A program made the translations under genes and the position numbers. Positions 21,301-62,600 of a DNA stretch of 62,600 nt are shown here, one piece after another. Under the pieces are notes generated by a model, which saw nothing but the letters and a program-made list of their open reading frames with translations, searched no databases and was not told the DNA's origin. The DNA lies in assembly GCF_030012215.1 (NCBI RefSeq), contig NZ_JASCXX010000030.1, positions 1-62,600 of the forward strand, given 5' to 3'. This stretch comes from Anaerobaca lacustris. Lineage in GTDB: Bacteria > Planctomycetota > Phycisphaerae > Sedimentisphaerales > Anaerobacaceae. Each line of letters opens with the position of its first letter. The stretch's first letter is position 1.

Positions 21301-22854
21301 ACGCCCGTGGCGGCGCGTTCGGTTCGGGGCGCTTCGTGGAGCGCGTTGAATGAGGCGGTCTTTGGGGTCGGGCCGGTGGCCGAGAGCCTTCGCGTCAGCG
21401 AGCTGATGTATCATCCGGCTGATCCGAACGCCGAATACGTTGAATTGACCAACATCGGCAGCCAGACGATCAACCTGAATCTGGTCGCCTTCACCGACGG
21501 GATTCAGTTCACCTTCCGCAGCGTCGAACTGGCCCCCGGGGCCTACGTGCTGGTGGCCGAAGACGTGGCGGCCTTCGAGGCAGCCTATGGTGCGGGCCTG
21601 CCCGTTGTCGGGCCATATTCGGGCAAGCTCAGCAATGCGGGCGAACGGATCGAGCTTCGCGATGCCACGGGCGCTGTCATCCAGAGCTTCACCTACCGCG
21701 ACGACTGGTATCGAATCACGGACGGACAGGGCTTCTCGCTGACCGTCAAGGACCCGGCCGGATCGGACTCGCTCGACGCCAAGGACGCCTGGCGTCCCAG
21801 CGCCCGGGCAGGTGGCTCTCCCGGATTCGATGATTCGGGCGTCGTTCCCGAACTGGGTGCGGTGGTCCTCAACGAGGTCCTCGCCAGCACCACCGCCGGG
21901 GCGCCGGACTGGATCGAGCTGCACAATACGACCGACGAGGCGATCGAGGTCGGCGGTTGGTTCCTCAGCGATGGGGCGCGGAACCCGATGAAGTACGAGA
22001 TCGCCCCCGGGACGATCATCGGGCCCAAGGGGTATCTGGTGCTCCGGGAAGACGAGACGTTCGGTAACGAGGACGATCCCGGCTGTCACGTGCCATTCGC
22101 GCTGAGCCGCGACGGCGAGACGCTGTACCTGCATTCGGGCGCCGACGGGGCGTTGACTGGCTACAGCGTGCAGGAGACGTTCGGCGCCTCGGAGACCGAT
22201 GTCACATTGGGCCGACACCGCACGAGCACGGGGTCGTACGACTTCATTGCCTTGCGCGCCGCGACGCCCGGAGCGGCCAACGACGAGCCGAGGGTCGGCC
22301 CGGTGGTCATCAGTGAGATCATGTACAATCCGGCGGAGCGGTCCGAGGCCGAATATGTGAAGTTGCTCAACGTCTCCGATGCGCCCGTGACCCTGTACGA
22401 CGACGCTCTGGGTGTGCCCTGGCGGTTTGCCGACGGCCCTGACGAGCCGCAGATCGAATTGCTGTTGCCGAGCGATGAGCCGGTGACGCTGGCGCCCGGC
22501 AGGCATTTGCTGCTGGTCAGAGATCCGATCAGCTTCGCCGTCCGTTACGGTGTCGTGTCCGGCATGCCCATCCTGGCGTGGGGGCCGGGCAAGCTGGCCA
22601 ACCACGGCCGGGCGGTCCAGATCAGCATGCCGGGCGGTGTCGCCGGCGACGGAACGGTGACCTGGATCTGTGTCGATCGCGTGGCCTACAGCGACGGGTC
22701 GCATCCTGAGGATTTTGGCGGTCGTGTCGATCCCTGGCCGGTCGAGGCGGACGGTCAAGGGCTTTCGCTGCATCGAGTCCCCCCGACCTCTTACGGCAAC
22801 GATCCGGCCAACTGGCAGGCCGCGCTTCCCTCACCCGAGAGGGCCGGCCGTTAA
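18352..22854 (+). CDS. Secreted CotH kinase / lamin-tail multidomain protein, 1500 aa
   Basis: A very large exported protein. After a signal-type hydrophobic segment (about 19-37) come a first lamin-tail domain (about 43-170, starting VVLNELQASN), a chitobiase-like C-terminal repeat (ATIYYTLDGRDP, ~225), and the CotH kinase domain (about 320-640; VRIQGGYFRTPSASSKKSFRLLFK, LYVNGLYWGLYNPCE, FYCWDAEDIM). A second chitobiase-like repeat (TIWYTLDGSDP) is split by a jelly-roll-like insert (about 800-930). At least three further lamin-tail domains follow to the C-terminus (LRVSELMYHP, VVLNEVLAST, VVISEIMYNP). CotH is an atypical kinase that phosphorylates secreted proteins. A GAGGAAAAG site precedes the GTG. 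VTC and DUF4956 genes follow, a known association of CotH. Confidence 0.88.
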   Translation: MSKQTSNGRTKVDASIRALGIVAVILCAAGGMGARCSAGNGVSVVLNELQASNVQTVKDPQGEYEDWIELHNPTGAAIDVGGLYLTDDAGDPTRWQIPTGSPSLTRIPAGGYLVIWADGDTADAGLHANFQLSAAGEGVYLYAADGTTLLDGVEFGPLFPDISYGRVPDGTGDWRSLAFPTPGSQNVAVYEGFVAVPRFSHERGLYDGPFELSLTCETPGATIYYTLDGRDPAEDSGRGPAGTPYTGPLFIFGTTRIRVCAAKDGWRTSETTTQTYIFLSNVVTQGRFPSGFPTTWGGTSADYEMDPRVVNDPQYKDRLSESLLSLPAMSLVTTNDDMFGSQRGIYANPGRDGVQWERPASVELIYPDGRKGFQVNCGVRIQGGYFRTPSASSKKSFRLLFKGIYGATKLRYPLFGDGAADEFDTITLRAGANDGYTWSGNERYAQFTRDQFARDLQRGAGHAGSHGLFVHLYVNGLYWGLYNPCERPDASFSASYYGGDKEEWDAFKHKGFALNDGNRTALNEMTSLSQQAGGSLAAYQRLQGRNPDGSENPDYAHLLDVANYIDYMIVNLWAGNWDWPWNNYWLARRRGPDSSGFKFYCWDAEDIMLSSRSPLTINRLSDYSDVGRFHGTLRQNPEYRLTFADHVHRHFFNGGLLAPDSLVERYQDLAGSIESAVIAELARWGDQHGRRMQLSDWQSMRNQIVSSYLPRRSDIVLQQFHSAGLYPSVAAPVFYVDGLRQHGHVAATGSELSMREADGTIWYTLDGSDPRLPEGATAGESSLLVAEDAAKRVLVPLIPVDPGWRTSPSFDDSAWISGTGGVGYERSTGYEPYFDIDVGQQMYGRTTTCYIRIPFDVSQETLANLSNLALRVRYDDGFIAYLNGVEIARRNFEGNPIWTSAANAQNSDLNAVEFEPIDVSAHLSALRVGPNLLAVQAMNDLPTSSDLLFSATLGSAQVAAGGTAGRVSPRAIQYTGPLTLSRSTPVAARSVRGASWSALNEAVFGVGPVAESLRVSELMYHPADPNAEYVELTNIGSQTINLNLVAFTDGIQFTFRSVELAPGAYVLVAEDVAAFEAAYGAGLPVVGPYSGKLSNAGERIELRDATGAVIQSFTYRDDWYRITDGQGFSLTVKDPAGSDSLDAKDAWRPSARAGGSPGFDDSGVVPELGAVVLNEVLASTTAGAPDWIELHNTTDEAIEVGGWFLSDGARNPMKYEIAPGTIIGPKGYLVLREDETFGNEDDPGCHVPFALSRDGETLYLHSGADGALTGYSVQETFGASETDVTLGRHRTSTGSYDFIALRAATPGAANDEPRVGPVVISEIMYNPAERSEAEYVKLLNVSDAPVTLYDDALGVPWRFADGPDEPQIELLLPSDEPVTLAPGRHLLLVRDPISFAVRYGVVSGMPILAWGPGKLANHGRAVQISMPGGVAGDGTVTWICVDRVAYSDGSHPEDFGGRVDPWPVEADGQGLSLHRVPPTSYGNDPANWQAALPSPERAGR

Positions 22855-22884
22855 CGGCAGGCGACCGGCTGCCGGGAAGGTCCG

Positions 22885-22900
22885 CTAACGTGATTCTAAT
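22885..22900 (+). promoter_or_regulatory. Pho-box-like direct repeat (CTAAC-N6-CTAAT)
   Basis: CTAAC at 22885 and CTAAT at 22896 are exactly 11 bp apart, the same spacing and core as in the arrays at 51830, 56562 and 59708. It ends 6 bp before the -35 box of a promoter reading into the VTC polyphosphate operon. Two units only, so weaker alone than the four-unit arrays. Confidence 0.55.
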
Positions 22901-22906
22901 AGTCCC

Positions 22907-22936
22907 TTGACTCTGACGAGCGACTTCTGGTAAAAT
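22907..22936 (+). promoter_or_regulatory. Sigma-70-like promoter of the VTC operon
   Basis: TTGACT at 22907-22912 and TAAAAT at 22931-22936 are 18 nt apart, one mismatch each. It lies immediately after the CTAAC/CTAAT repeat and about 165 nt before the VTC start codon. Confidence 0.6.
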
Positions 22937-23099
22937 AGGAAAAGAAGCTGGGCCGCACCAGAGGCGTTCGGCCCGGCGAAGGCGGTATTGGTGGAGGTGT
23001 TCTTGCCGGGGGTATGTGGGGTCTCTCGCCGCTTGAGGCAAGACGGACTGGGAATCTCCAGGTGCAACAGGGCCCGCCAGGGCGGTAAGAAGCATTTGC

Positions 23100-23954
23100 A
23101 TGACGACGAGCCAGACAACCGGAACGGGTGACTGCGTTGCCGAATCGGCGGCCGCGGGGAAGGACCGTCCGGCCCTGAACGCGACGAAGAGCGGCGACCG
23201 GATGCTGGCGTGCCGCTTCGAGTTGAAGTATCTCATCATGGAGGCCACCGCGGCGGCGATCGAGAAGTACATTCGACCGTTTCTCGAATACGACCGGTAC
23301 TCCAAGCTTCAGCGGGGCGGGATGTATCCGATCGTCAGTCTGTATTGCGATTCCCAGGACATGCAGCTCTGTCGCGAGACGCTGACCGGTGTGAAAAACC
23401 GTTTCAAACTGCGGATTCGCAGCTACACCGATGAGCCGGAGTACCCGCGGTTTTTCGAGATCAAGAGGCGGATCAATCAGGTCATCGTCAAGAGTCGGGC
23501 CCGTGTGATGGATGAGGACGTCGCGCCGCTGCTGGCGGGACGACAGTTGCCGCCACGCGGCTATACGACGGATGAGGCGGCGCTGAATCAATTCCAGCTC
23601 TACGCGGCCAGCATCCACGCCGGACCGCGCGTCCTCATTCGATACATGCGCCAGGCCTTCGAGAACACCACCGAGAATCGGGTGAGAGTGACCTTCGACC
23701 GGGATCTCTGCTACAAGGTCACCGACAAGCCGATCGTGCGCCTGGGCGGATCGGGCTGGCAGCGGAACGTCCTGACCGAGGGCTATGTGATACTGGAAAT
23801 CAAATTCACGGGGACCTTTCCCACATGGCTGAGCCGAATGGCGGCGCTGTTCGGTCTCAGGGCCCGGTCGGTGTCGAAGTTCGCCACGTCGATCGAGCAG
23901 GCCTGTGCGTTGGGGTATTGCGCCCCCGTCTTGAGGAACGGGTGGTATGGATAA
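23100..23954 (+). CDS. VTC-domain polyphosphate polymerase-like protein, 284 aa
   Basis: The VTC (vacuolar transporter chaperone) domain forms a tunnel that makes polyphosphate from ATP in yeast Vtc4. The conserved basic tunnel residues appear in order: RFELKYLI (about 39-46), KLRIRSY (~101-107), FFEIKRRINQVIVKSRA (~117-133), RVRVTFDRD and the acidic-basic strand YVILEIKF (~229-236). Length fits a stand-alone bacterial VTC protein. It overlaps the next gene (DUF4956) by 8 bp, so the two are translationally coupled. CotH is immediately upstream. A Pho-box-like repeat in front suggests control by phosphate. Catalysis by bacterial members is less well established than in yeast. Confidence 0.88.
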   Translation: MTTSQTTGTGDCVAESAAAGKDRPALNATKSGDRMLACRFELKYLIMEATAAAIEKYIRPFLEYDRYSKLQRGGMYPIVSLYCDSQDMQLCRETLTGVKNRFKLRIRSYTDEPEYPRFFEIKRRINQVIVKSRARVMDEDVAPLLAGRQLPPRGYTTDEAALNQFQLYAASIHAGPRVLIRYMRQAFENTTENRVRVTFDRDLCYKVTDKPIVRLGGSGWQRNVLTEGYVILEIKFTGTFPTWLSRMAALFGLRARSVSKFATSIEQACALGYCAPVLRNGWYG

Positions 23955-24639
23955 GCTCTGGCAACTGATGGAAGAGACGCCGATGGGGGGGCCGTTCAAT
24001 CCGCAGAGCATTCTGCTGAGCCTCCTGCTGGCGTTCGTGTTGGGGCAGGTGATTGCGTGGGTTTACTACATCACGCACAGCGGTCTGTCCTACTCTCGTT
24101 CGTACGTGCAGTCGCTGATCATCATCACGGTTGTGATTTCCATGGTGATGGCCGTGATCGGCAACAACATCATCACGGCCGTCGGCCTGATGGGCGCGCT
24201 GGCCATCATTCGTTTCCGCAACATCATCAAGGACACGCGCGACATCTCCTTTATCTTCTGCTCGCTGGTGGTGGGCATGGCGGCCGGTTCGCACCGGTAC
24301 GCGACGGCCATCATCGGGACAATCATCTTATGCCTGATTATCCTCTATCTGTATATGACGGATTTCGGCGCGCATGAACCGCACAACGGGTTCCTCCGGT
24401 TCAGCCTGCGTGGTTCCATCGGGCCGGACCACCCGATCACGATGGTCCTGCGGCGGTTCTGCGGGAACTACACCCTGATCTCCGTCCAGGACACCGGCTT
24501 CGGTGGCCCTGCCGACTATGCATACCAACTGATGATCCGCAACGCCGCTCGAAACGAGGAGCTGATCGCCGAGCTCGAACGCGTCGAGGGCGTCGAGAAC
24601 ATCAGTCTCACCATGCAGGAAAAGCTGCTTGAGGTATAA
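23947..24639 (+). CDS. DUF4956 membrane protein, 230 aa
   Basis: An integral membrane protein with about four helices in the first 140 residues (ILLSLLLAFVLGQVIAWVYYI, SLIIITVVISMVMAVIG, AVGLMGALAIIRFRN, ATAIIGTIILCLIILYLYM) and a cytoplasmic ferredoxin-like C-terminal domain. The stretch GLMGALAIIRFRNIIKDTRDISFIF is the DUF4956 signature. DUF4956 genes are typically adjacent to VTC and CotH genes; the protein may form the membrane component that moves or anchors polyphosphate, which is inference. Its ATG lies inside the end of the VTC gene (8-bp overlap). Confidence 0.9.
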   Translation: MDKLWQLMEETPMGGPFNPQSILLSLLLAFVLGQVIAWVYYITHSGLSYSRSYVQSLIIITVVISMVMAVIGNNIITAVGLMGALAIIRFRNIIKDTRDISFIFCSLVVGMAAGSHRYATAIIGTIILCLIILYLYMTDFGAHEPHNGFLRFSLRGSIGPDHPITMVLRRFCGNYTLISVQDTGFGGPADYAYQLMIRNAARNEELIAELERVEGVENISLTMQEKLLEV

Positions 24640-50386: not shown

Positions 50387-51709
50387 CTATCGTCGGATGG
50401 CGATGGCGATAAGTCCAAAGACGATGCTCACGGTCCCGAGCAATGCGATGCCGGATGTCAGGCCGTGCGTGTCCAGCCACCAACCCAGCGGGTAACCGGC
50501 CAGAGCGGCCCCGACGTACATCCACCCGTCCATGATCCCGGCGCCGGTGCCCGACAGACGCTGGCCCAGAATGTCGCCCGGCAGACAGAACAGGGGTGTG
50601 TGGATCCCCTGAATCAGTCCGCCGGACGCGAAGACAGAGGCGCAGAGCACCAACAGTCCGATGGGGGAATCCAACAAAGCCGCGCTTCGGGATAGAACAA
50701 ACAGCGCCCCGCCGGCGGCGACCATGCTCAGGGCGATCGTCTGCCAGCGGCGGGCCCTGAAGAGGCGATCGGACAGCACGCCGAGGCTTACCGCGAAGAA
50801 CATCCCGCCCCAGTCGACCAATGAACCGATCCAGCCGGCCCTGGTCAGCGCCAGGCCGAAGCCGCCCTCGACGGCAGGTGTTTGCAGGATCAGGATGATC
50901 CAGTGCAGCAGTCCCCAGCGGATGGCGTTGGCCCCGAAAGCGACGATGTACGGCACCATCATTCGCCGGTGGCTGAATGCGTGCCAGTACGCCTGGGCGT
51001 CGGCGGGCGTGTGCGTTTGGTCGCCACAGGAGTCCCACGGAACAGTGATTCCGGCCTGTTGCGGCGAGTCCTTGCACAGAACGGCGAACAGGGCCGCCAT
51101 GCCGGCCAGAAACAGCGGGGGGAGGAAGAAGGCCCCTTGCCAGCCGCCCCAGCGTTCGATGGAGTATGCCGCGATCGGCGCCACGAGCGCGCCGCCGAAG
51201 TAGGGGAAGAAGTTGTACAGGCCCATCCACCAGCCCCAGCGTTGCTCGGGGAACCAGTTGCACAGGATTCGACAGCCGGGCGCCCAGCCCATAGAGGAGA
51301 AGTACCCGTTGATGGCCCAGAACACGACGAAGAGAACCAGTGTATGACTTAAGCCGAAGAGAACGTTGGCTGCGACGCCTCCGAGAGCGCCGATAAGCAT
51401 GATGCGTTTGGGACTGTAGCGATCGCCAAGAAAGCCGTTGAGGAACTGGCCCAGCGCATAGGTCAGGGTGAACGCCGTCAGGACCCAGCCGAACTGGCGG
51501 TGGGACAGGCCGAGGCTCTGCTCGATCGCTCCGGCGGCGACGCCGATGTTCTTCTTGCCGAAGTAATAGAACAGATACAGTACGGCCATGCTGAAGAAGG
51601 CCCGCATCTGCCAGAGCCTCATCGCAGCCGAAGGGGGCGTCGCTGCTTTGCGGCGGACCTGCGGTGGTTCGAAACCCACACGGCGGATTGGCAGTGCTTC
51701 CACGGTCAT
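50387..51709 (-). CDS. MFS transporter, organophosphate/phosphonate-type (GlpT/UhpC-like), 440 aa
   Basis: A 12-helix major facilitator of the OPA-like type; helices run from about residue 35 to 437, with [20 protein letters not shown] resembling the GlpT-family motif in helix 4-5 and [12 protein letters not shown] the loop 2-3 motif. Being first in an operon with phnW and phnX, it most likely imports 2-aminoethylphosphonate. The first 30 residues are hydrophilic, and a later ATG at 51622 is possible. The predicted -10 box ends only 10 nt upstream of the 51709 ATG, so the message may be nearly leaderless. Confidence 0.85.
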
Positions 51710-51718
51710 AGACCGGTG

Positions 51719-51761
51719 ACATTAGCCGCCAGTTGTTAGCCCTGAATTGGAGAACGGTTAG
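51719..51761 (-). promoter_or_regulatory. Pho-box-like array and -10 box of the phosphonate operon
   Basis: On the minus strand CTAAC (51761-51757), CCAAT (51750-51746) and CTAAC (51739-51735) recur every 11 bp. A -10-like TAATGT (51724-51719) begins 15 bp after the start of the last unit. This is the geometry of Pho-box promoters, where the repeats replace the -35 box. Confidence 0.6.
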
Positions 51762-51829
51762 ATTTGCATTTTCCGGAGACCGCCTCGGTGGCGCCGCGCC
51801 GTCGCAAGCGGGCCGACAAGAATCTGCCG

Positions 51830-51867
51830 CTAACGAAAAACTAAAGAGATCCAAGCGCCGCTCTAAC
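51830..51867 (+). promoter_or_regulatory. Pho-box-like four-unit array upstream of the response regulator
   Basis: CTAAC (51830), CTAAA (51841), CAAGC (51852) and CTAAC (51863) are in an exact 11-bp register, with the third unit degenerate. It ends 82 bp before the regulator's start codon and is divergent from the phosphonate array, suggesting autoregulation and joint control. Confidence 0.6.
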
Positions 51868-51949
51868 GGAAACCGTGTCTTCTGATGGTGGGAAGGTGTC
51901 TGTACAGCGCCAGGGTAATGGCCATGATGACTTGTTTGTGGGGCACGCC

Positions 51950-52642
51950 ATGGGAAAAGGAACGATTCTTGTCGTCGATGACGAAGAGGACATACAGGAA
52001 CTGGTGGAACTTCATCTTGTCCGGGAGGGCTACGATGTCTGCACCGCCGGCTCGGGCGAAGAGGCCCTGGAGGTGGCGCAGGCCAAACAGCCGGCGTTGA
52101 CGATCCTGGACCTGATGCTGCCCGGAATCGACGGGCTGCAGGTCTGTCAGATCCTCAAGGCGAACCCCAAGACCCGGCAGATGCCTGTCATTATGCTCAC
52201 CGCCAAGAGCGAGGAAAGCGACGTGGTCACAGGGCTGGAACTGGGGGCCGACGACTACATCACCAAGCCGTTCAGCTCCAAAGTGCTGGTGGCGCGCGTG
52301 CGTCGCGTGCTGCGCAAGACGGCCGATCGGGATTCGGACGAAGGCGTTATACAGATCCACGATCTGCGCATCGACTCGACCCGTTGCGAGGTCCTGCTCA
52401 AGGGCAAGGCCCTTTCGCTGACCTTCTCGGAATTCAACATCCTCCGCGTCCTGGCCCGCCGGCCGGGCGTGGTGTTCACGCGATACCAGATCGTCGATTC
52501 CCTGCACGGGGGCAACTACATCGTCAGCGAGCGGGCGGTGGACGTTCAGATCGCCTACCTTCGCAAGAAGCTGGGCGACTGCAAGGACTACATCGAGACC
52601 GTTCGAGGCGTCGGTTACCGGTTCAAAGACAGCCCGTCGTAG
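51950..52642 (+). CDS. PhoB/OmpR-type response regulator, 230 aa
   Basis: A receiver domain (about 1-120) has the acidic pair in VVDDEEDI, the phosphoacceptor Asp in ILDLMLPGIDGLQV (~53), the Thr in MLTAKSEESD and the Lys in YITKPF. A winged-helix OmpR-type DNA-binding domain follows (about 135-230; LTFSEFNILRVLARRPGVVFTR, VDVQIAYLRKKLGD, IETVRGVGYRF). Length and GVGYRF ending match PhoB. ATG at 51950 gives the standard GTILVVDDE start; a longer start is possible. No histidine kinase is adjacent. The position between a phosphonate operon and a TonB system, with 11-bp repeats upstream, supports a PhoB role. Confidence 0.9.
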   Translation: MGKGTILVVDDEEDIQELVELHLVREGYDVCTAGSGEEALEVAQAKQPALTILDLMLPGIDGLQVCQILKANPKTRQMPVIMLTAKSEESDVVTGLELGADDYITKPFSSKVLVARVRRVLRKTADRDSDEGVIQIHDLRIDSTRCEVLLKGKALSLTFSEFNILRVLARRPGVVFTRYQIVDSLHGGNYIVSERAVDVQIAYLRKKLGDCKDYIETVRGVGYRFKDSPS

Positions 52643-53405: not shown

Positions 53406-56312
53406 TCAGAATTCGTGTTCCATGCTCAGGACGATGTCAATGCCCCTCCTGTAGGACGTTTTGGTCGCCTCGCGGTCGATGTAGTCGGAACGATACACCC
53501 TCTCGATCTTGGGATTGGTCAGATTCTTGATCTGGAGGGAGAGTTTTGTCCGTTCCCCAATGGGTTGCACGACGCCGAGGTTCAGCGAGCCGTATTCCTT
53601 TTCGTAAACGTCGGGGACGTAGCCCCGGCCGAGGGCCACACCGCCTTCGACCAGGGTGTCGCCGCGAACGGTATAGAAGACTCCGACTCGCGTGCCGTAT
53701 TTCTCGCTCTGGTACGTCAGATTCAGGTTGTAGAGAAACTCCGGCGTGTTCGTCATGTCGCGACGCTTCCTCGGCGCCTCCACGTCGGCGAACGACTGCG
53801 CCTCCCGATCCGGCAGCGTCACCTCCGACTCGATGAAGGTGGCGTTGGCCCCGAGCGTGAAGCCACGGAACTGCTCCCAGAACCTTCCCAGGTCCTGGCG
53901 GACCTCCAGCTCGTACCCTTCGAGCCAGCCTTCCGGGTAATTGACGGCGGTGGTGTAGAACAGCGACGCCTGGAAGCGTTGTACGTACTCGATCGGGTTC
54001 TTCACGTCCTTGTGGAACCAGGAAGCCGAGAGAAGGGAGCCGGCGTACGGCTCGTAATCGACCCGCAGGTCGTAGTTCCTCAGCGCGCTCATCGTCAGTT
54101 GCGGGTTTCCGACGAAGATGTCGGCGCCGAGGTATTCCATCTGCATCACCGGCGAAAGCTCCTTGAAGGTCTGACGCGCCACGGTCTCGCTGTAGGAGGC
54201 GCGGAGCTTGACCTTCTCGACCGGCTTGAGTTCGACCCCGATCGACGGCAGGATGTCGTCCTGCGAGTAGGACACGTCGGCTTCGGGTCCGAATCGCGTC
54301 CAGCCGGTCCCTCCGGGGGGCAGATACTGGGCGTTGTCGCTTTCGGGACGGTTGACGATCTTCAGGTCCGTCGATTCGTGCCGGGCCCCACCGACCACCT
54401 TCAGAAAACCGGTGAGCGGCAGATCGATCATGTAATACCACGCCCCGATCTTCTGGTCGCCCTTGTAGTCCACATCCTGGTCGGAGGCCGCGATCGGGTG
54501 CCCTTCACCGACGTAGACGGCGCCCCAGTTTCGCTCCCAGGGGGCCTCATAGGACGTGCCGTCGAACTCATAGAAGAACCCGTCCTGGTTGTACTTCCGC
54601 TCGACGCGGTCGTGGAACACGCCGACCTTCAGGTAGCCTTCTTCGCCGCTCCACTGTTCGAACGGCACCTTGCCGTTGACGGCGACCTGATTGCTCGTTT
54701 CGGTGATGTCCTTCCATATCCGCTGGGCGAATTCGTTGCCGCTTCCGCTGGGGTCGTGTCCATAATGGGCCGCCGGAAACTCCAAAACGTTGGGGATGAC
54801 TACTCGTCCCGGACTCCACCACGTGCGGAACGTCCGCTTGTCGGGCTGGTCCATGCGGGCTTCGTTGTGCGAAAGCGTCCAGTCGAGTTCCGGGTCGAGA
54901 GTGCGCGCGATCTTCCAGAGCGAATACTCCCGAAGGCTCAGGCCATGCCGTCCCTTCAGTTGCAGCGTGGATTGCGATCGCTCGGTGTACTCCAGCGTCT
55001 CGTTGCGGTGGAACGGCGCCTCGATGTCCAGCTCGTCGCGATACAGGCTGCCCCGCGTGTCCTCGAGAAGGGTGGCCTCGTCTTCGGTGATCTGCGTCCG
55101 CATGTAGAGCAGCGAAAGGGCGTGATTGTCCCATTCGGCGCCGACGGCCCCGAGGGCCCCCCATTGAACGGACTCCACCCCCTTGGTCACGTCATACAGG
55201 GTCGTGTATCCGTATTGCTCGAACGGCCTCATCGCATACCGGCCGTCGGTCAGGCGGGCCTCATAGATGTCGAACGTTCCCCCGTCGTCGTAGGAGGCGT
55301 CGTGCTTGTAGTACATGCTGCCGAACGCCCCGACGCGGACGCCGTTGTCGAGCTCGCGCTTGCCGCCGGCGGTGAAGGAGCCGCTGTAGATCAGGGGGGC
55401 GTCGTCGCGCGTGGTTCCCATGACTCCGCCGAACTGATTGTTTCGCGGGATGTCCCTGCCGCTGTCGATGCCCCAGAAATCGACCCCGCCGCCACGATAG
55501 GTGAGAAAATCGTCGCGGTATCGGAGTTGTGTGTTGTATTCGGTACCGATCTTGGCGGTGAGCACGCGTTCATCGGGGATTCCCTTGAGCACGAGATTCA
55601 CCGCGCCGCCGGAGGCGTCGCCCTGTTGGTCGGGCGTGAAGGTCTTGCTGACCTGAATGCTCTCGACCAGGGCGGCGGGGAACTGGTCGAGCTGCACCGC
55701 TCGTTTGTCCACATCGGCCGTGGGCAGACGCACCGCATTCAGTTGCGAATTGACGTACCGGTCCGGCAGACCGCGCACCACGGCGTATTTCCCATCCTCG
55801 ACCGTGGCGCCGGCCACCAGGCGAAGGGCGCCGGCGGCGTCGCTGGCGCCGGCCTGACTCATCAGGTCCGAGCTGATCGCGTCCAGAAACGACGGGCTCG
55901 CCATTCGCAGGTTCAGCAGGCCGATCTCCGAGCCGCCCAGTTCGAGGTCCTGCACCACGAACTCCTCCATCTCCGTGAATTCGCCGGCCAGGGAGGCGTT
56001 CACTTCCGCCATGCCGCCTGCCGAGACGACCACATTGGGGGTGAACTGGCGAGTGTAGCCGTCCTTGGAGAAGACCAGCGTATAGGCGCCCGGGGCGACC
56101 TGCCCGAACACAAAGACCCCCTCCTCGTTGGTGGTCGTGGTCTCTCCGGTTTCATTGATCCATACGCGGACCAGGGGCAGCGGCACGTCGAAATCCTGGT
56201 CGTAGACCACGCCGCGGATGCCGCCGACCTGTTGGGCCGAGGCGGCCGATGCCAGGCAAAACAACCCTATTACGTGCAATACAAAGGGTTTGGCAAGCGG
56301 GTCTATTCGCAC
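53406..56312 (-). CDS. TonB-dependent outer-membrane receptor with carboxypeptidase-like N-terminal domain, 968 aa
   Basis: A TonB-gated import channel. A signal peptide (VLHVIGLFCLASAASAQ) is followed by a carboxypeptidase-regulatory-like beta domain (GGIRGVVYDQDFDVPLPLVRVWI...GAYTLVFSKDGYTRQ, about 30-110), the plug domain (ALRLVAGATVEDGKYAVVRGLPDRYVNSQLNAVRLP, about 160-270) and a 22-strand-type barrel to the C-terminal Phe (SMEHEF), which suits BamA insertion. The plug lacks an obvious TonB box in the first residues. Substrate is not known; context (PhoB-type regulator, phosphonate genes, Pho-like repeats) suggests a phosphorus compound. Confidence 0.92.
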   Translation of the reverse strand: MRIDPLAKPFVLHVIGLFCLASAASAQQVGGIRGVVYDQDFDVPLPLVRVWINETGETTTTNEEGVFVFGQVAPGAYTLVFSKDGYTRQFTPNVVVSAGGMAEVNASLAGEFTEMEEFVVQDLELGGSEIGLLNLRMASPSFLDAISSDLMSQAGASDAAGALRLVAGATVEDGKYAVVRGLPDRYVNSQLNAVRLPTADVDKRAVQLDQFPAALVESIQVSKTFTPDQQGDASGGAVNLVLKGIPDERVLTAKIGTEYNTQLRYRDDFLTYRGGGVDFWGIDSGRDIPRNNQFGGVMGTTRDDAPLIYSGSFTAGGKRELDNGVRVGAFGSMYYKHDASYDDGGTFDIYEARLTDGRYAMRPFEQYGYTTLYDVTKGVESVQWGALGAVGAEWDNHALSLLYMRTQITEDEATLLEDTRGSLYRDELDIEAPFHRNETLEYTERSQSTLQLKGRHGLSLREYSLWKIARTLDPELDWTLSHNEARMDQPDKRTFRTWWSPGRVVIPNVLEFPAAHYGHDPSGSGNEFAQRIWKDITETSNQVAVNGKVPFEQWSGEEGYLKVGVFHDRVERKYNQDGFFYEFDGTSYEAPWERNWGAVYVGEGHPIAASDQDVDYKGDQKIGAWYYMIDLPLTGFLKVVGGARHESTDLKIVNRPESDNAQYLPPGGTGWTRFGPEADVSYSQDDILPSIGVELKPVEKVKLRASYSETVARQTFKELSPVMQMEYLGADIFVGNPQLTMSALRNYDLRVDYEPYAGSLLSASWFHKDVKNPIEYVQRFQASLFYTTAVNYPEGWLEGYELEVRQDLGRFWEQFRGFTLGANATFIESEVTLPDREAQSFADVEAPRKRRDMTNTPEFLYNLNLTYQSEKYGTRVGVFYTVRGDTLVEGGVALGRGYVPDVYEKEYGSLNLGVVQPIGERTKLSLQIKNLTNPKIERVYRSDYIDREATKTSYRRGIDIVLSMEHEF

Positions 56313-56427: not shown

Positions 56428-56443
56428 TTAACCTAAAGTTAAC
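56428..56443 (-). promoter_or_regulatory. Pho-box-like pair upstream of the TonB receptor
   Basis: TTAAC at 56428 and TTAAC at 56439 are exactly 11 bp apart; on the minus strand the units read TTAAC and TTAAA. The pair lies about 116 bp upstream of the receptor start. Orientation is ambiguous because GTTAAC is palindromic. Confidence 0.45.
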
Positions 56444-56561
56444 ACGGTGGCGGTGGGCGACTTGGCGGTCCGGCCGTGGAGCCGCCGGCCCGGTTAGCCG
56501 GATGGTGCTGCAGGACGCGATGTGCAACGCACGAAGGGGGAAACACGAAACAAACAGAAAG

Positions 56562-56599
56562 TTAACGGATTATCAGTATTGCGCTAATCACAAGCTAAT
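56562..56599 (+). promoter_or_regulatory. Pho-box-like four-unit array upstream of the beta-helix gene
   Basis: TTAAC (56562), TCAGT (56573), CTAAT (56584) and CTAAT (56595) recur at exactly 11 bp. A -10-like GACAAT begins at 56610, 15 bp after the start of the last unit. The unit order is nearly the same as in the array at 59708. Confidence 0.65.
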
Positions 56600-56876
56600 A
56601 CTCTGCGCCGACAATGGCCCCGGATCGGCAGGGTCAAACGGTCACGCGGTGATGTGGTCGAGTTGAGGGATAGCGCGCCTCCTGGCGATCTACATTGTAG
56701 TGTACTCGCGAGTTGGCATAGTGTGCCGGGCGTGTCCCGGCGTGAGCGATCGGTCCCCGGAACCGATGGCTCGGACAACAGCAGTACGGAGGATGCGTGA
56801 CTCGGACTTCCTCCAGATGACAGATGCTGCTTGAGCAGCGCAAACAGACCAAGTGCAACCAGTATGGAGAACAACC

Positions 56877-58328
56877 ATGAAGAAACTCGCATTGATTGCC
56901 CTGATGGGCATGGTGGCCGCCGGCATCGCCGGTGCGGCCGACATTGAGGTGACGGAGAATATCGTCACGTCCACCACATGGACCGCCGACAACGTGTATT
57001 ACCTTCAGGGCGTCATCTACGTCGAGCCCGGCGCGAGCCTGACGATCGAGCCCGGCACCCTGATTCGCGGCAACACGGCCAGCACCCTGGTCATCGCCAA
57101 AGGCGCCCAGATCTTCGCCAACGGCCGCAAAGACGCCCCGATCATCATGACGTCGATGGAGGACGATCTGGTGACCTACCGGCCGGTCTCGGAAGAGTGG
57201 GGCAACCTGACGATCCTGGGCAATGGGATTATCGCGGCGACGATGGACGGCGACGGCACGGGCCAGCCGGACGGCACGGACACCGCACAGATGGAGGGTC
57301 TCGTCGCCCGGTTTGAAGGCGACACCTTTCCGCTGTATGGTGGCGACGATGACGACGACGACAGCGGTGTGGTTCGCTACGTCTCCCTGCGCTACGGTGG
57401 GTTTGTTCTGAGCATGGCCAATGAGCTCAACGGTCTGTCCATCGGTGGCGTCGGACGCGGCACCGATATGGAATATGTCGAGATCATGAACAACGTCGAC
57501 GACGGGATCGAGATCTGGGGCGGCACGCTCAATATCAAGTACTTCTCGATTTGGAACATTGGCGACGACAGCTTCGACGTGGACCAGGGGTGGCGCGGCA
57601 AGGCCCAGTTCGGCCTGATCGTCCAGGGCTACTGCGGTTCGAACAGCCAGGGCTCCGGCATCGGCGACAACATCTTCGAGATGGACGGCGCCGAGGACGC
57701 GTCGGCTCAGCCGTTCGGCACCGCGCTGTTCTACAACATCACCGCGATCGGCCAGCCTCTTGATGGCGATCAGGGCACGGAGTTTCGCGACAACATGCGG
57801 GCCCAGTTCCACAACTGTATCTTCATGGACGTCGGCGATGCGATGATCAAGGACGGAGGCACCAGCGGTGACGGTGGCGGTTACGGTTCGGCCGGCGTTC
57901 CGACGCTGCTCGAACTGTTCAACACGCCGTACGATGAGTATCCGACCAACACGGCCGGCATCGATCCGATGGTGCTCTACCCGGACCTGACGTCGGGCAA
58001 CTGGTGTGATTTCACCAACAATGTGTTCTACAATCTGGCCAAGACCGATTCACTGGTTCAGTTTGGGGTCATGGATGAGGGCAAAGGCAACGTCATTGCC
58101 GAGAACAGCCCGATCCAGGAGATCGTTCGCGAAGATCCGGTGGTCGTTGGCGGCAAGGCCATGGCCAACGTGACCTACCTGAACCCCCGCGCGGCCAACG
58201 ATGCCCGCCACAGCGATCACATTCGCGACTGCGGGTTCATCACGCCGGCGCCGTACAAGGGCGCCTTCCTCGACCACAACTGGCTGGTCGGCTGGACGGC
58301 CGCTTATGCCTACGGCATGACCGACTAA
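56877..58328 (+). CDS. Secreted beta-helix-like protein, 483 aa
   Basis: A signal peptide (KKLALIALMGMVAAGIAGAA) leads to an extended beta-rich protein. The first part, TSTTWTADNVYYLQGVIYVEPGASLTIEPGTLIRGNTASTLVIAKGAQIFANG, is like the repeats of surface proteins common in Bacteroidota that start with 'TWT.D..Y.L.G.vfV..GatLtIepGT'. Asp/Gly-rich loops (GGDDDDDDSG) could bind metal. The fold is probably a right-handed beta-helix; function unknown. GGAGA lies 7-11 nt before the ATG. A Pho-box-like array is upstream, so it may be made under phosphate limitation and work with the TonB receptor at the cell surface. Confidence 0.8.
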   Translation: MKKLALIALMGMVAAGIAGAADIEVTENIVTSTTWTADNVYYLQGVIYVEPGASLTIEPGTLIRGNTASTLVIAKGAQIFANGRKDAPIIMTSMEDDLVTYRPVSEEWGNLTILGNGIIAATMDGDGTGQPDGTDTAQMEGLVARFEGDTFPLYGGDDDDDDSGVVRYVSLRYGGFVLSMANELNGLSIGGVGRGTDMEYVEIMNNVDDGIEIWGGTLNIKYFSIWNIGDDSFDVDQGWRGKAQFGLIVQGYCGSNSQGSGIGDNIFEMDGAEDASAQPFGTALFYNITAIGQPLDGDQGTEFRDNMRAQFHNCIFMDVGDAMIKDGGTSGDGGGYGSAGVPTLLELFNTPYDEYPTNTAGIDPMVLYPDLTSGNWCDFTNNVFYNLAKTDSLVQFGVMDEGKGNVIAENSPIQEIVREDPVVVGGKAMANVTYLNPRAANDARHSDHIRDCGFITPAPYKGAFLDHNWLVGWTAAYAYGMTD

Positions 58329-58447: not shown

Positions 58448-59668
58448 ATGCGAGTGCGACTGGCCCTGGTTCATTTGTTCCTCGGCGTTGGGTGTCTCGT
58501 CCTGGTTGTTGGCTGTGGTCCAGAGGATGAGGCAGATGCGATCGGTCTCAATGGGGATGCCTCATTGGCCTCCTATCAGGAGGAATTGCTGGAGATCGCG
58601 TTTGGCGCCGCCTCGGCGATGCCCGTGGACCCGCACATCAAGAATCGTTCCCGGCTGCAGGAGACCGTCGTGGCGGCCTGCCTTTCACTGGAGCAGCCCC
58701 AGCGCGCTGTTCGCTACGCTGAGCAGATTCACGACTGGAGGCGTGGGGCGGCCTATGCGGACCTCGCGCTGTTCTACGCACAGCGCCGGCTCGATTCCTA
58801 CGTGCAGCCTCTGCTGGACCAGGCGGCCGAGATTGCCGCCGGTGAGGAGGATTGGCGCAAGGAACGAATCCGAGTCAAGATTGCTCAGGTCCATGCCCTC
58901 ATGGGACGGGTGGAAATGGCGACCCGGTTCGAGCAGGGCGTCGAGCCCGCCGAGAGAGGCAAGGTCGCTCGGATCGAGGTGAGGATCGCCGCGCCGGATT
59001 CCTTCGACGAGCAGATGGAGGCCTTGACCACACTCATCGACACCCAGCAATTCGACATCGTCAGAAATGCCCTGGCCGCGTGCGTCGAGCTGTTCAATCG
59101 CTTCTATGACGACCTCGATTGCCGTACGCAGGCCGAGGACAAGATCAAAGCGTCCTGGGGCAGCCTGCCCGTATTTGTTCGGATCGAGCTGCTGATGGAG
59201 CTGGCGAACGCTTCGCTGGCGCATGCCGATTCGGCCAAGGCGCTGGCGCTGCTCGACGAAGCCAAGAACTTCGTGGAGAGCCCCCGTTGGCAACCCCAGT
59301 CCATCATTCCCCTGATGGCGCAACTGGCCCGACTGCGTTTCCGAGCCGGCGACGAGGCAGGTGCTCGGGCCGAGGCCGAGCGCGCTCTGGATCTGTTTGG
59401 CGCAAAGCGCGATACGATTGTGAACATCTATCGGGCCCAGACGCTTCGCCCGATCGCCGAGGCCTACTATGCAATGGGTGATACGGCCGCTGCGCTCGAT
59501 CTTTACAAGCGGGCGGTTGAAGCGGGGATGGAAAACCCCAATGCAAGGCCCCGGGCCGACGATCTGGTGGCCACCTGTTGTTCGCTGGCCTTGCATGCCG
59601 TGGAGCCAGATGCCGTGCTGGCGAGCCGGATACGCGAAATCCAGGCCGGTCTGGGTGACCCGTGGTGA
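58448..59668 (+). CDS. TPR lipoprotein, 406 aa
   Basis: A lipoprotein signal with lipobox LVVGCGPE (Cys at about residue 23) is followed by an all-helical protein with tetratricopeptide-like repeats, clearest near the end (RPIAEAYYAMGDTAAALDLYKRAVEAG, ~335-361, and RFRAGDEAGARAEAERALDLF). Periplasmic or outer-membrane-attached scaffold; partners unknown. It is on the strand of the beta-helix gene, separated by 119 nt and a strong hairpin, and precedes the DUF3450-ExbB operon. Confidence 0.8.
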   Translation: MRVRLALVHLFLGVGCLVLVVGCGPEDEADAIGLNGDASLASYQEELLEIAFGAASAMPVDPHIKNRSRLQETVVAACLSLEQPQRAVRYAEQIHDWRRGAAYADLALFYAQRRLDSYVQPLLDQAAEIAAGEEDWRKERIRVKIAQVHALMGRVEMATRFEQGVEPAERGKVARIEVRIAAPDSFDEQMEALTTLIDTQQFDIVRNALAACVELFNRFYDDLDCRTQAEDKIKASWGSLPVFVRIELLMELANASLAHADSAKALALLDEAKNFVESPRWQPQSIIPLMAQLARLRFRAGDEAGARAEAERALDLFGAKRDTIVNIYRAQTLRPIAEAYYAMGDTAAALDLYKRAVEAGMENPNARPRADDLVATCCSLALHAVEPDAVLASRIREIQAGLGDPW

Positions 59669-59707: not shown

Positions 59708-59745
59708 TTAACGCAATTTCAATCATCCCCTAATCTGCCGCTAAC
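59708..59745 (+). promoter_or_regulatory. Pho-box-like four-unit array upstream of the DUF3450-ExbB operon
   Basis: TTAAC (59708), TCAAT (59719), CTAAT (59730) and CTAAC (59741) recur at exactly 11 bp. A weak -10-like GAAGAT starts at 59756, 15 bp after the last unit begins. It lies in the 197-nt gap between the TPR lipoprotein and the DUF3450 gene. Confidence 0.68.
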
Positions 59746-59865
59746 GTGGCCCGGTGAAGATACAGACAGCCGAGCCACCGTTGTATGCCTATGCGGGTGA
59801 CCGTGACTCGCGGACACCGTCCAGGGATTGCATGGACGGACCAGTCGCATGAGGAAAGGTTGACT

Positions 59866-60657
59866 GTGATCGAACGAACGTGTCGATGGACGATTCTGGC
59901 GTTGCTGATCTTCGTCTCCCTGGGTGGGGCTGTCGAATCCGATCGGATCGACAACGTCCGCGCCTTGACGGAGCGATGGGTCGAGACGCGCCGAGTGATC
60001 TCCAAAGAGCGGCAGGACTGGACGCTCGGCCGCGAAATGCTTGACGAACGCATCAAGCTCGTCGAGCGAGAAATCGCGTCGTTGCGCGAGAAGATCGACG
60101 AGGCGCAGAAGAGCATCGGCGAGGCCGACGCCAAGCGCGCCGAGCTGGTGGACGAGAATGAGACATTGAAGGCCTCGGCCACCGGACTGACGGAGACCTT
60201 GGCGGCGATGGAAGCTCGCACGGTGGCGTTGGACCGGCGGCTTCCGGACCCGGTTCGCGAACGCATCAAACCGCTTAGCCAGCGCATCCCGGACGATCCG
60301 AACGATACGAACCTGTCCCTTGCCCAGCGGTTCCAGAACGTCATTGGGCTTCTGAACGAGGTGAACAAATTCAATCGCGCCGTTGAGGTGACCAGCGAGA
60401 TCCGCACGATGACGGATGGCAGCGCCGTCGAGGTCGCCGCCCTGTACGTGGGTCTGGGACAAGCCTACTACAGCGGCGCCAATGGGACGGCAGCGGGCGT
60501 CGGGCGTCCCGTCGCTGACGGCTGGCATTGGGAGCCGGCTCCCGACGCCGCCGAGCAGGTGGCGGAGGCTCTCGCCATCCTGAAAAATGAGAAAGTCGCC
60601 GGCTTCGTCCCATTGCCGGCCACCATAGACCAAGGAACGGCCAATGTCCATCGGTAG
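59866..60657 (+). CDS. DUF3450-like periplasmic coiled-coil protein, 263 aa
   Basis: A signal-type segment (WTILALLIFVSLGGAVES) precedes a long coiled coil (about 35-130, heptads rich in Glu, Arg, Ile) and a C-terminal globular part with FNRAVEVTSEIRTMTDGSAVEVAALYVGLGQAYY, which matches DUF3450. DUF3450 proteins are encoded at the front of TonB/ExbB operons in proteobacteria. The GTG at 59866 is chosen: GAGGAAAGG is 7 nt upstream. A frame from 59785 would put the start near the expected transcript start and has no ribosome-binding site. Its end overlaps the ExbB-type gene by 14 bp. Confidence 0.82.
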   Translation: MIERTCRWTILALLIFVSLGGAVESDRIDNVRALTERWVETRRVISKERQDWTLGREMLDERIKLVEREIASLREKIDEAQKSIGEADAKRAELVDENETLKASATGLTETLAAMEARTVALDRRLPDPVRERIKPLSQRIPDDPNDTNLSLAQRFQNVIGLLNEVNKFNRAVEVTSEIRTMTDGSAVEVAALYVGLGQAYYSGANGTAAGVGRPVADGWHWEPAPDAAEQVAEALAILKNEKVAGFVPLPATIDQGTANVHR

Positions 60658-62581
60658 GAACATGTACCTGCTGATCTGCATCCTCTCTCTTCTGCTTCCG
60701 ACCGTGTCGGCTCGCATCGCCGGAGGGCAGGACAGTGCCGACGCCGGTGCATCCGCATCACAGACAACAGCGCCCGCCGACACCGTCAGCGCCATCGGGG
60801 TCTCCGCTCAACGTCAGCTCGAAGAAAGCCTGGCCGAGCTGGCGGCGCTGCGACAGGCGATTGCGGAGGAGAAGGTGCCGATGGGCCGCCGGCTCAGCGA
60901 GCTCGAAGAGCAGCTTCTGGAAGTGCGTCGCGAGTACCAGCAGGCCATGCGCCTTCTCGACAGCCGCACGCTCGATCTGAGCAACCTGCGTTCGGAAGTC
61001 CAGTCGCGCCGCGAGGAGAAGACCTACATCTCCAACTTGCTGAGCGAATACACCCGCAGTTTCGAGACGCGACTCCATATTGCCGAGATTCAGCGCTACA
61101 GCGACCTGATCGAAGCGGCCGGGCTGGCCCCCGAGAACAGCAACCTGAGCGAAGCCGAAGTGTATCAGACACAGGTCGCGCTCGTGACGGCGTCGCTCGA
61201 AAGGCTGCATGAGGCCCTGGGCGGGGTCCGGTTCGACGGCAGCGCCGTGGATTCCTCCGGCCGGATCCGGCGCGGTACATTCGTCCTGCTGGGGCCGGTC
61301 GCCCTGTTCCGCTCGGACGACGGCGAAACCGTCGGGATCGCCGAGCAGCGCCTCGGTTCGCTCGAACCGACGGTCTTGCCCTTTGGTTCGGAGGCGATGA
61401 CCCAGGCGGCGGCTACACTCGTCGCCACCGGCGCCGGCGAGTTCCCGTTCGACCCCACGCTCGGCAACGCCCACAAGATCGAGGCAACCAAGCAGACACT
61501 CCTCGAGCATATCCGCAAAGGCGGGGTGGTGATGTATCCGATCTTGGGCCTCTTCGCCGCTGTCATGCTGGTGGTCCTGTTCAAATGGATCGAACTGGCG
61601 CGTTTGCGTCAGCCGTCGGAACGACGGATTCGTGCGTTGCTCGATGCGATCGCGGATCGCAAGAAGGAGATCGCCGCCGCCGAGGCTGCCGCCATCGGTG
61701 GGCCGACCGGTGCGATGCTGGCGACCGGCGTCGAGCACCTCCACGAACCGGTGGCCCTGGTCGAAGAGGTGATGTATGAGAAGATTCTCACGGCCAAGCT
61801 GAGGCTTCAGCGCTTTCTGCCGTTCATCGCGATCAGCGCCGCGGCGGCCCCGTTGCTTGGTCTGCTGGGCACGGTTACGGGAATCATCAACACGTTCAAG
61901 CTGATCACCGTTTTCGGTTCAGGGGATGTCAAGACGCTGTCGGGCGGGATTTCCGAGGCTTTGATCACCACCGAGTTCGGTTTGATCGTGGCGATTCCTT
62001 CGTTGCTGCTGCACGCATTCCTCTCTCGCAAGGCGCGCGGGATGATCGCGCAGATGGAGAAGTCGGCCATCCGCTTCATGAACCAGGTCGGCAAGACCCC
62101 GTATCAGCCGCAGGACACGGCCAAGACGCTCGCGGAGATGCCCGCCGCCGTGGCGGAGGAAGTTCTGCGACGTCTGAGGAGCCGGGCCCAGGAGCTGGAC
62201 GAGACCTGCGAGGGTGCGCCGTATGCACCGGGTTCGGCCGGCAGCATGATGGAACCGGCGTCGATGACGATCCATCAGAGCATGACTGTCGCCGAGGCGC
62301 TGAATGCGATGCGCGCGGCCGGATCGGATGAGGATTTCCACGCTGTCTTCGTCGTGGATGAAGAGGGCCGGTACGTCGGAGACCTTCACGTTCGCCTGTT
62401 GTTGACCCGGCCCGAACAGGCGCGCATCGAGTCCCTGATCGATCGGGAGACGCTGTTCGTACGCACGGACACCGACCGAGACGAGGTGCAGCAGCTCTTT
62501 CGAACCCATGACGTCCGTGTCATGCCGGTCCTTGACGACGACGATCAACTGGTCGGACGAGTGATTCGCAATGGAGAGTAG
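60644..62581 (+). CDS. MotA/TolQ/ExbB proton-channel protein with C-terminal CBS pair, 645 aa
   Basis: A signal peptide (LLICILSLLLPTVSA) is followed by a periplasmic coiled-coil domain (about 45-160) and a beta-rich domain (to ~275). The MotA/TolQ/ExbB channel is at about 285-490: first helix VVMYPILGLFAAVMLVVLFKW, then ALRLQRFLPFIAISAAAAPLLGLLGTVTGIINTFKLI and ALITTEFGLIVAIPSLLLHAFL, the usual signature. Residues ~540-645 form two CBS motifs (MTVAEALNAMRAAG...VFVVDEEGRYVGDLHV and VRTDTDRDEVQQLFRTHDVRVMPVLDDDDQLVGRV), as in MgtE. Periplasmic extension plus channel is like TtpC; the CBS pair is not usual. Start overlaps DUF3450. Confidence 0.9.
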   Translation: MSIGRNMYLLICILSLLLPTVSARIAGGQDSADAGASASQTTAPADTVSAIGVSAQRQLEESLAELAALRQAIAEEKVPMGRRLSELEEQLLEVRREYQQAMRLLDSRTLDLSNLRSEVQSRREEKTYISNLLSEYTRSFETRLHIAEIQRYSDLIEAAGLAPENSNLSEAEVYQTQVALVTASLERLHEALGGVRFDGSAVDSSGRIRRGTFVLLGPVALFRSDDGETVGIAEQRLGSLEPTVLPFGSEAMTQAAATLVATGAGEFPFDPTLGNAHKIEATKQTLLEHIRKGGVVMYPILGLFAAVMLVVLFKWIELARLRQPSERRIRALLDAIADRKKEIAAAEAAAIGGPTGAMLATGVEHLHEPVALVEEVMYEKILTAKLRLQRFLPFIAISAAAAPLLGLLGTVTGIINTFKLITVFGSGDVKTLSGGISEALITTEFGLIVAIPSLLLHAFLSRKARGMIAQMEKSAIRFMNQVGKTPYQPQDTAKTLAEMPAAVAEEVLRRLRSRAQELDETCEGAPYAPGSAGSMMEPASMTIHQSMTVAEALNAMRAAGSDEDFHAVFVVDEEGRYVGDLHVRLLLTRPEQARIESLIDRETLFVRTDTDRDEVQQLFRTHDVRVMPVLDDDDQLVGRVIRNGE

Positions 62582-62583
62582 AT

Positions 62584-62600
62584 ATGGCTATGGAACAGCT
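62584..62600 (+). CDS. Start of a further gene, cut by the window end
   Basis: An ATG 2 nt after the ExbB-type gene's stop opens MAMEQ at the window edge. In DUF3450/TtpC-type operons the next gene is usually a second, shorter ExbB-type protein, then ExbD and TonB. Only five residues are visible, so the product cannot be identified. Confidence 0.45.

Follow-up and report, generated by a model that had tools for sequence, protein, structure and literature searches.

Tandem YTAAY repeats with an 11-bp period as probable Pho boxes in a Phycisphaerae-type planctomycete

The intergenic regions of the stretch of DNA analysed here (the window, 62,600 nucleotides, contig C30 of a 5.73-Mb genome in 117 contigs that was the subject of the genome-wide searches) contain direct repeats of a YTAAY core in steps of 11 bp, and it is very likely that these arrays are the Pho boxes of a Phycisphaerae-type planctomycete and thus candidate docking sites for PhoB. 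The repeats and their 11-bp phase are present in the letters themselves, they are conserved in front of pstS, phoB and a DUF3450 gene in relatives, and at pstS they are followed by a TA at a fixed distance. Units of this type (11-bp YTAAY units, with a TA 15 bp on at the best promoters) would provide a usable operator definition for phosphate regulons in a large and mostly uncultured class of planctomycetes, and they point to genes that are seldom filed under phosphate, namely VTC, a DUF3450/ExbB TonB module, a polyphosphate cluster with CHAD, and, by phoB, a protein of 78 aa.

The array at 51830..51873 (plus strand, four units of 11 bp) stands before the gene of a second PhoB (PhoB2). Its four 5-mers CTAAC (51830), CTAAA (51841), CAAGC (51852) and CTAAC (51863), on which the original prediction was built, follow each other in exact 11-bp steps, the outer two being full cores 33 bp apart and the two between them being degenerate (4/5 and 3/5 letters of YTAAY). 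Divergent from it, a good array of three units, CTAAC/CCAAT/CTAAC (51735..51761, minus strand), precedes the gene of an OPA-type MFS transporter. Two good arrays of four units are found on the plus strand, TTAAC/TCAAT/CTAAT/CTAAC at 59708..59751 before the DUF3450-ExbB genes, and TTAAC/TCAGT/CTAAT/CTAAT at 56562..56605 before the genes of a secreted protein and a TPR protein, in an intergenic region shared with a divergent TonB receptor gene. A short array CTAAC/CTAAT/TTGAC (22885..22917, plus strand) with two full cores and TTGAC lies before the VTC gene, and upstream of the TonB receptor gene there are only two TTAAC with an 11-bp step, a weak site (56428..56443, given as plus strand); both TTAAC are part of a palindromic GTTAAC, and the strand is ambiguous. 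The five arrays predicted besides that at 51830 therefore all exist, but they are unequal, those at 56428 and 22885 being short and that at 51735 being on the minus strand. The expected intergenic setting is seen at all six places, which lie between called genes, and the non-genic share of the window is 17.0% (codon-usage gene calls in both cases).

When four units were scored against YTAAY (maximum 20, cut-off at least 17), a step of 11 gave six starts in the window, and steps of 7-10 or 12-15 gave none. These six starts correspond to four places, 51830, 51735, 59708 and 56562 (the latter in three registers), and 22885 and 56428 score below 17. In order-2 Markov simulations (60 copies of the window), this cut-off was never reached. 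Pairs of YTAAY on the plus strand are spaced by 11 bp four times, by 22 bp twice and by 33 bp three times, with two at other distances, and on the minus strand there is one at 22 bp and four elsewhere. A scan of 51600-52000 for sigma-70 promoters and terminators gave nothing, and an Rfam search of the window and two further loci (L033, L035) gave only a tRNA.

Throughout the genome, 38 pairs of the type CTAAY N(2-30) CTAAY are found, with 11 at 11 bp, four at 22 and three at 33, and the remaining 20 scattered over spacings that occur at most twice each. The 12 pairs of TTAAC N(2-30) CTAAY have spacings of 11 bp (three) and 22 bp (two), and seven others occur once each. The same words read backwards are commoner (520 vs 38 for the CTAAY pairs, 213 vs 12 for TTAAC-CTAAY), as is a backward-read three-unit pattern with up to two mismatches (65 vs 30 matches). 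Because the control words are commoner, raw counts are uninformative and the case has to be made by spacing and location. With at most one mismatch, the three-unit pattern has 16 matches at nine places, which are phoB, Porin_O_P, pstS, two sites at a polyphosphate cluster on contig C2, C24:84495, and 22885, 51735 and 59708 in the window. The predicted concentration of such arrays at phosphate genes is borne out by seven of the nine, three of them loosely linked: phoB, the porin, pstS, the HD-CHAD-Ppx-Ppk site, the second site behind ppk, VTC and the OPA-type transporter next to PhoB2. An independent phosphate link is missing at 59708 and at C24:84495, the latter having RNase Y and a 3-keto-disaccharide hydrolase as neighbours.

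The strongest arrays adjoin phoB, Porin_O_P, pstSCAB-phoU and the polyphosphate cluster. By Pfam content, one run of genes on contig C6 comprises phoB, two Na/Pi cotransporters with PhoU domains, a PAS-HAMP histidine kinase and Porin_O_P, and continues with pstS (array at C6:63610), two permeases, an ABC ATPase and phoU. The array at phoB has six units (C6:55651-55714) and is reversed relative to phoB. The cluster on C2 comprises HD, CHAD, Ppx/GppA and polyphosphate kinase (Pfam), and its second site (165002) is linked to phosphate by neighbourhood only, at a distance of some 0.9 kb behind ppk; the gene that follows this site encodes a 199-aa protein with no Pfam match, for which NCBIfam gives a weak match to MbfA, below the cut-off.

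Arrays next to which no phosphate gene was recognised are those at C24:84495, C1:21242, C31:44305, C4:276925, C7:6304 and C8:86385. The same applies to seven array places with two mismatches, one of them intragenic, and chance matches appear at this level. Two of the two-mismatch arrays (C5:123228 and 123366; loci L151 and L153) are 138 bp apart near the gene of a 448-aa secreted-looking protein that has no Pfam match. Behind the C8 array, which has the TA at +15, a 772-aa secreted protein of the F5/F8-type C family is encoded (L037:3953-6423), a possible new Pho target. Alongside the C1 array (L032) lies an LTD/CotH gene, and another LTD/CotH gene adjoins VTC-DUF4956 in the window (18481-24639).

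The closest PstS relatives come from metagenome assemblies of planctomycetes (Phycisphaerae, Phycisphaerales, Sedimentisphaerales, Planctomycetota), the nearest two with 91-94% identity. Among the nearest loci (L051-L075), 24 of 25 have enough upstream DNA (L066, and further down L078, have none), and 21 of these 24 planctomycete loci reach a score of at least 17 upstream of pstS at step 11, as against one of 216 values for the other nine steps. There is no array at L067 and L075, and L073 scores 17 but at -232. Of the more distant planctomycete pstS loci, L080 scores 18 and L096 scores 17, and L081 scores 13 and has no array. Relatives of phoB within the order have an array in 19 of 29 loci, 18 times on the gene strand and once reversed (in the same-genus genome G038), with 0/174 values in the controls; the other ten loci read show no array, and the 29 are those of 40 non-own matches that have a readable locus. 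Relatives of the DUF3450 gene have an array upstream in 8 of 10 cases (controls 1/60 values). Beyond the planctomycetes, 11-bp arrays of the TTAAC type were found before pstS in Aminicenantes (L076, L079, L082), Kiritimatiellaeota (L083, L084) and Dehalococcoidia (L101, L119), so that the box type may be widespread, but this is only a lead, as step controls reach 17 in L076, L079 and L084 and there are none for L101 and L119.

The array type was also searched by covariance models made from sequence only, which have 44-53 positions and low power, many array-like sites having E-values above 0.3. Model R1 (44 positions) was derived from the pstS promoters of 21 relatives and includes no window sequence, R2 has the letters of R1 read backwards as a control, and R3 is of the R1 type but includes the -10 part. 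R1 and R3 share a training set of 21 pstS loci, drawn from the 24 with enough upstream DNA by leaving out L067, L075 and L073 and keeping L058 (score 16); L080, L081 and L096 are outside the training set. The best six places of R1 in the window are exactly the six array places, and the seventh match (18281) lies outside them. Its E-values are 0.01 at 51733-51770 (minus strand), 0.039 at 59709, 0.49 at 22884, 0.69 at 51826-51844, 0.77 at 56542-56568 and 1.0 at 56428, and it matches additionally 56581-56600 inside the 56562 array. R3 has its best match at the 51735 array (E 0.012) and finds 51830-51844 with E 0.33; most R1 and R3 E-values in the window are weak. The backward control R2 gave five weak matches in the window, the best (E 3.7) inside the 59708 array and four elsewhere.

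Genome-wide, R1 has five matches with E<=10, two of them in the phoB array and one each at pstS, the polyphosphate site and 51733, and R3 has four, one each at pstS (E 2e-5), the porin, the phoB array and the polyphosphate site, whereas R2 has no match among the 150 of 375 first-look candidates that were scored. In the family, 14 of 21 genomes have R3 matches, at no fewer than 50 places (with 150 first-look candidates scored in most genomes). Of 31 loci that were read, three are from the genome itself, and 23 of the other 28 hold within the locus a relative of a gene of the own Pho set, which for this count included candidates from the window such as the TPR protein and the TonB receptor. In 16 of the 28, such a relative follows the array immediately and on its strand (PstS 7, PhoB 7, porin 1, TPR-TonB 1), and the five loci without any are L257, L263, L265, L275 and L276. 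Since the training set of R3 consists of pstS promoters, independent evidence comes from the PhoB, porin and TPR-TonB rows only. Some of the genomes, moreover, are apparently the same assemblies as training rows (G024/L062, G018/L072, G027/L061 and G038/L053), so that their pstS matches are not independent.

In every training promoter (21/21), positions +15/+16 relative to the first base of the last core are TA, the commonest letters around this TA being GCGTAnA. By the column counts of these promoters, each of the four units most often starts its core with C, and the letter that follows the core is most often A or G. In the own genome, TA is found at this position in 7 of 17 places examined, the choice of the last unit having been made by the analyst: at pstS, the porin, the small ORF by phoB, both C2 sites, C8 and, in the window, 51735 (OPA gene). 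It is absent at C1, C24, C31, C4, C7 and the other five window places, so that one of six window arrays has it. The array at 51830 has TC instead of TA, and +15..+20 of the 56562 array reads GACAAT.

The arrangement is of a known kind. The PhoP box of Bacillus subtilis, which belongs to another phylum, is of the TTAACA type and has a TTAAC-like core in direct repeats near 11 bp. According to PMC4415409, Pho-box consensus sequences vary between species, and the box is defined by two 11-nt direct repeat units. At least two direct repeats with an 11-bp period are found here as well, and across the genome they precede pst and phoB along with further phosphate genes. With E. coli, the planctomycete arrays share the 11-bp period of the direct repeats, which at the best promoters lie ahead of a -10-like TA, a PhoB-type regulator and the pst genes, but the core is CTAAC instead of the CTGTCAT given in PMC4415409, and the distance from the start of the last core to the TA is 15 bp, which leaves 7 bp after an 8-bp box, whereas in E. 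coli 10 bp separate the end of the Pho boxes from the -10 (PMC1906773). Closest to YTAAY is the cyanobacterial box. For SphR/PhoB of Synechocystis, PMC1906773 describes CTTAACCT repeats, and the TTAA core of cyanobacteria is supported by EMSA in PMC11126600. By these two sources, cyanobacterial Pho boxes stand before pst and phosphatase genes and share with the planctomycete arrays the tandem 8 + 3 = 11-bp repeats, at least three in number, before pst, and a core, there TTAA(C), that is the nearest known. They differ in that the first core letter in the planctomycete is mostly C (CTAAC) and the next letter mostly A or G, not C; a CTTAACCT pattern with the core TTAACC per repeat was not found in the column counts of the 21 training promoters. 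The host and the regulon with its TonB module, VTC and polyphosphate cluster differ as well. No planctomycete Pho box was found in titles and abstract beginnings of the literature searched, which mostly excluded subscription journals. The original idea of an undescribed Pho-box variant is supported, with the qualification that the core, though unlike that of E. coli, is close to the cyanobacterial TTAA type; the kind of box is known, and the novelty appears to lie in the lineage, in its particular core and in what the regulon contains.

Monomers of the PhoB family would bind head-to-tail on the 11-bp direct repeats, one unit per helical turn, each at a core YTAAY that is most commonly CTAAC and mostly followed by A or G. 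At the best promoters, the last repeat would take the place of the -35 element, 15 bp ahead of a -10-like TAnA, and bound PhoB~P would recruit RNA polymerase during phosphate starvation. The arrays of the window would in this way control PhoB2, the organophosphate-type transporter, the VTC polyphosphate gene and the TonB uptake module. Binding by the PhoB of C6 and/or by PhoB2, like the activation by low phosphate, we infer from the sequences.

The regulator behind the 51830 array (PhoB2, 51950..52642, plus strand) is indeed of the PhoB type as had been predicted, as it has a receiver and a winged-helix effector domain (Response_reg and Trans_reg_C) and PhoB as its best NCBIfam model. It is 67% identical to the product of phoB at C6:55859, beside pstSCAB. 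TIGR02154 (PhoB) is the best NCBIfam model of both regulators, with 241.5 bits for PhoB2 and 251.1 for the PhoB of C6, neither of which reaches the equivalog cut-off of 296.2. The 19 of 29 phoB loci with arrays support autoregulation as a habit of the lineage, and autoregulation of PhoB2, whose own array at 51830 is weak, may be presumed. It is also conceivable, and the less likely of the two views of PhoB2, that the PhoB of C6 recognises the arrays of the window as genuine Pho boxes, and that PhoB2 has drifted to other or narrower targets, in which case its autoregulation would be wrong or partial. In its recognition-helix region, SERAVDVQIAYLRKKLG, PhoB2 has AY where 30 other aligned proteins differ: the A is V or T in 29 of them and shared by L183 alone, and the Y is S, G or A in all 30. 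A second PhoB copy is furthermore not general, since G038 has only one PhoB match at E<=1e-60, and the 51830 array is among the weaker ones and has no TA. Against such a drift speak the overall identity with the PhoB of C6, the VDVQI..LRKKL frame that is kept in PhoB2, and the Pho-type array directly ahead of its gene.

Boxes of the OmpR family are generally direct repeats near one helical turn, and the arrays could on this ground belong to another OmpR-family regulator, serving an envelope or other starvation response, that co-regulates phosphate genes; the six array places of the own genome without a recognised phosphate gene would fit this. It is nevertheless improbable, as the arrays front phoB itself in relatives, as well as pstS and porin genes, and as PhoB is the best family match of both regulators. 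Less probable still is a chance periodicity of A+T-rich promoter words. Such words are expected in intergenic regions, where the arrays are located, and the shortest arrays (56428 and 22885) have only two or three units, but the six high-scoring starts at four places contrast with none in the simulations and at any other step, and the arrays are conserved across genera. A chance origin of the set was rejected on the simulations and step controls; 56428 alone may be a chance pair. The reading of the arrays as Pho boxes therefore is preferred, and the genes behind them are candidate members of the regulon.

The OPA-type transporter (organophosphate:phosphate antiporter type; 50387..51622, minus strand, with MFS_1 found on the longer frame 50387-51709) matches in NCBIfam, in this order, TIGR00881 PgtP, a galactonate transporter, UhpC, GlpT and UhpT, all below the cut-offs. 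The VTC-domain protein (23100..23954, plus strand) is of the polyphosphate polymerase type (PF09359 with E 5e-37, PF16316), and a DUF4956 gene follows. In a same-genus genome (L204), the identical three cores stand before a VTC gene with 81% identity, but outside the genus only 4 of 24 scannable loci score at least 17, and in these four the array is on the opposite strand. The link of array and VTC thus holds within the genus only, and a role of VTC as Pho target throughout the class was rejected.

The TonB module of the window comprises the receptor (53406..56264, minus strand, frame open up to 56312), a secreted-looking protein of 483 aa (56877..58328, plus strand), a TPR protein (58565..59668, plus strand), a TtpB-like DUF3450 protein (59902..60657, plus strand; PF11932 with E 7e-31 on the longer frame 59785-60654) and a MotA/TolQ/ExbB protein with a C-terminal, MgtE-like CBS part (60644..62581, plus strand). 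The fusion of ExbB and CBS is unusual, and the contig ends 19 bases behind it, at 62600. The 483-aa protein has no Pfam or NCBIfam match, and a homologue is located beside TPR and TonB receptor genes in G073 (L272); a predicted fold was discarded, as it came from a two-row alignment and had a mean pLDDT of 29. Relatives of the TPR protein are encoded directly upstream of TonB receptors, and this pair has arrays ahead in 3 of 11 loci (L232, L244, L272), the view upstream of the TPR gene extending over some 310-420 bp in ten of them. A conserved array at the start of the receptor gene itself was rejected, as none of ten relatives has one within 400 bp. Of 59 genomes, 11 have the DUF3450 gene, and the TonB receptor gene is found in precisely these 11.

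From the placement of the arrays, the module of TonB receptor, TPR protein, secreted protein, DUF3450 and ExbB seems to belong to the Pho regulon. It has about an even chance of being true that the PhoB regulon of Phycisphaerae includes, as a dedicated and energised uptake route of the outer membrane, this TonB module (receptor, TPR, secreted protein, the TtpB-type DUF3450 protein and ExbB-CBS) via CTAAC Pho boxes and imports a phosphorus compound through it, not only via the Porin_O_P channel, with a species-limited second PhoB alongside. In the TonB2 system of Vibrio vulnificus, the DUF3450 protein is TtpB2, encoded directly upstream of TtpC2, and the system is induced by iron limitation and has a potential Fur site (PMC6957404). 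The DUF3450 gene of the window likewise lies directly upstream of a TtpC/ExbB-type gene, but it is preceded by a Pho-type array, and the ExbB protein has a CBS part. Among the titles and abstract beginnings searched, none linked DUF3450 with phosphate.

The six-unit array at phoB on C6 points away from phoB and, with its TA in place, towards an ORF of 78 aa with a hydrophobic stretch (L035:6314-6547, corresponding to C6:55313-55546, minus strand), which has no NCBIfam match. In G038, an ORF with 53% identity (L176:990-1187, minus strand) is found at the same position behind the reversed array, which there also has six units and the TA at +15, as read by eye. Judged by the membrane span read from its sequence, the 78-aa ORF may encode a Pho-controlled small membrane protein.
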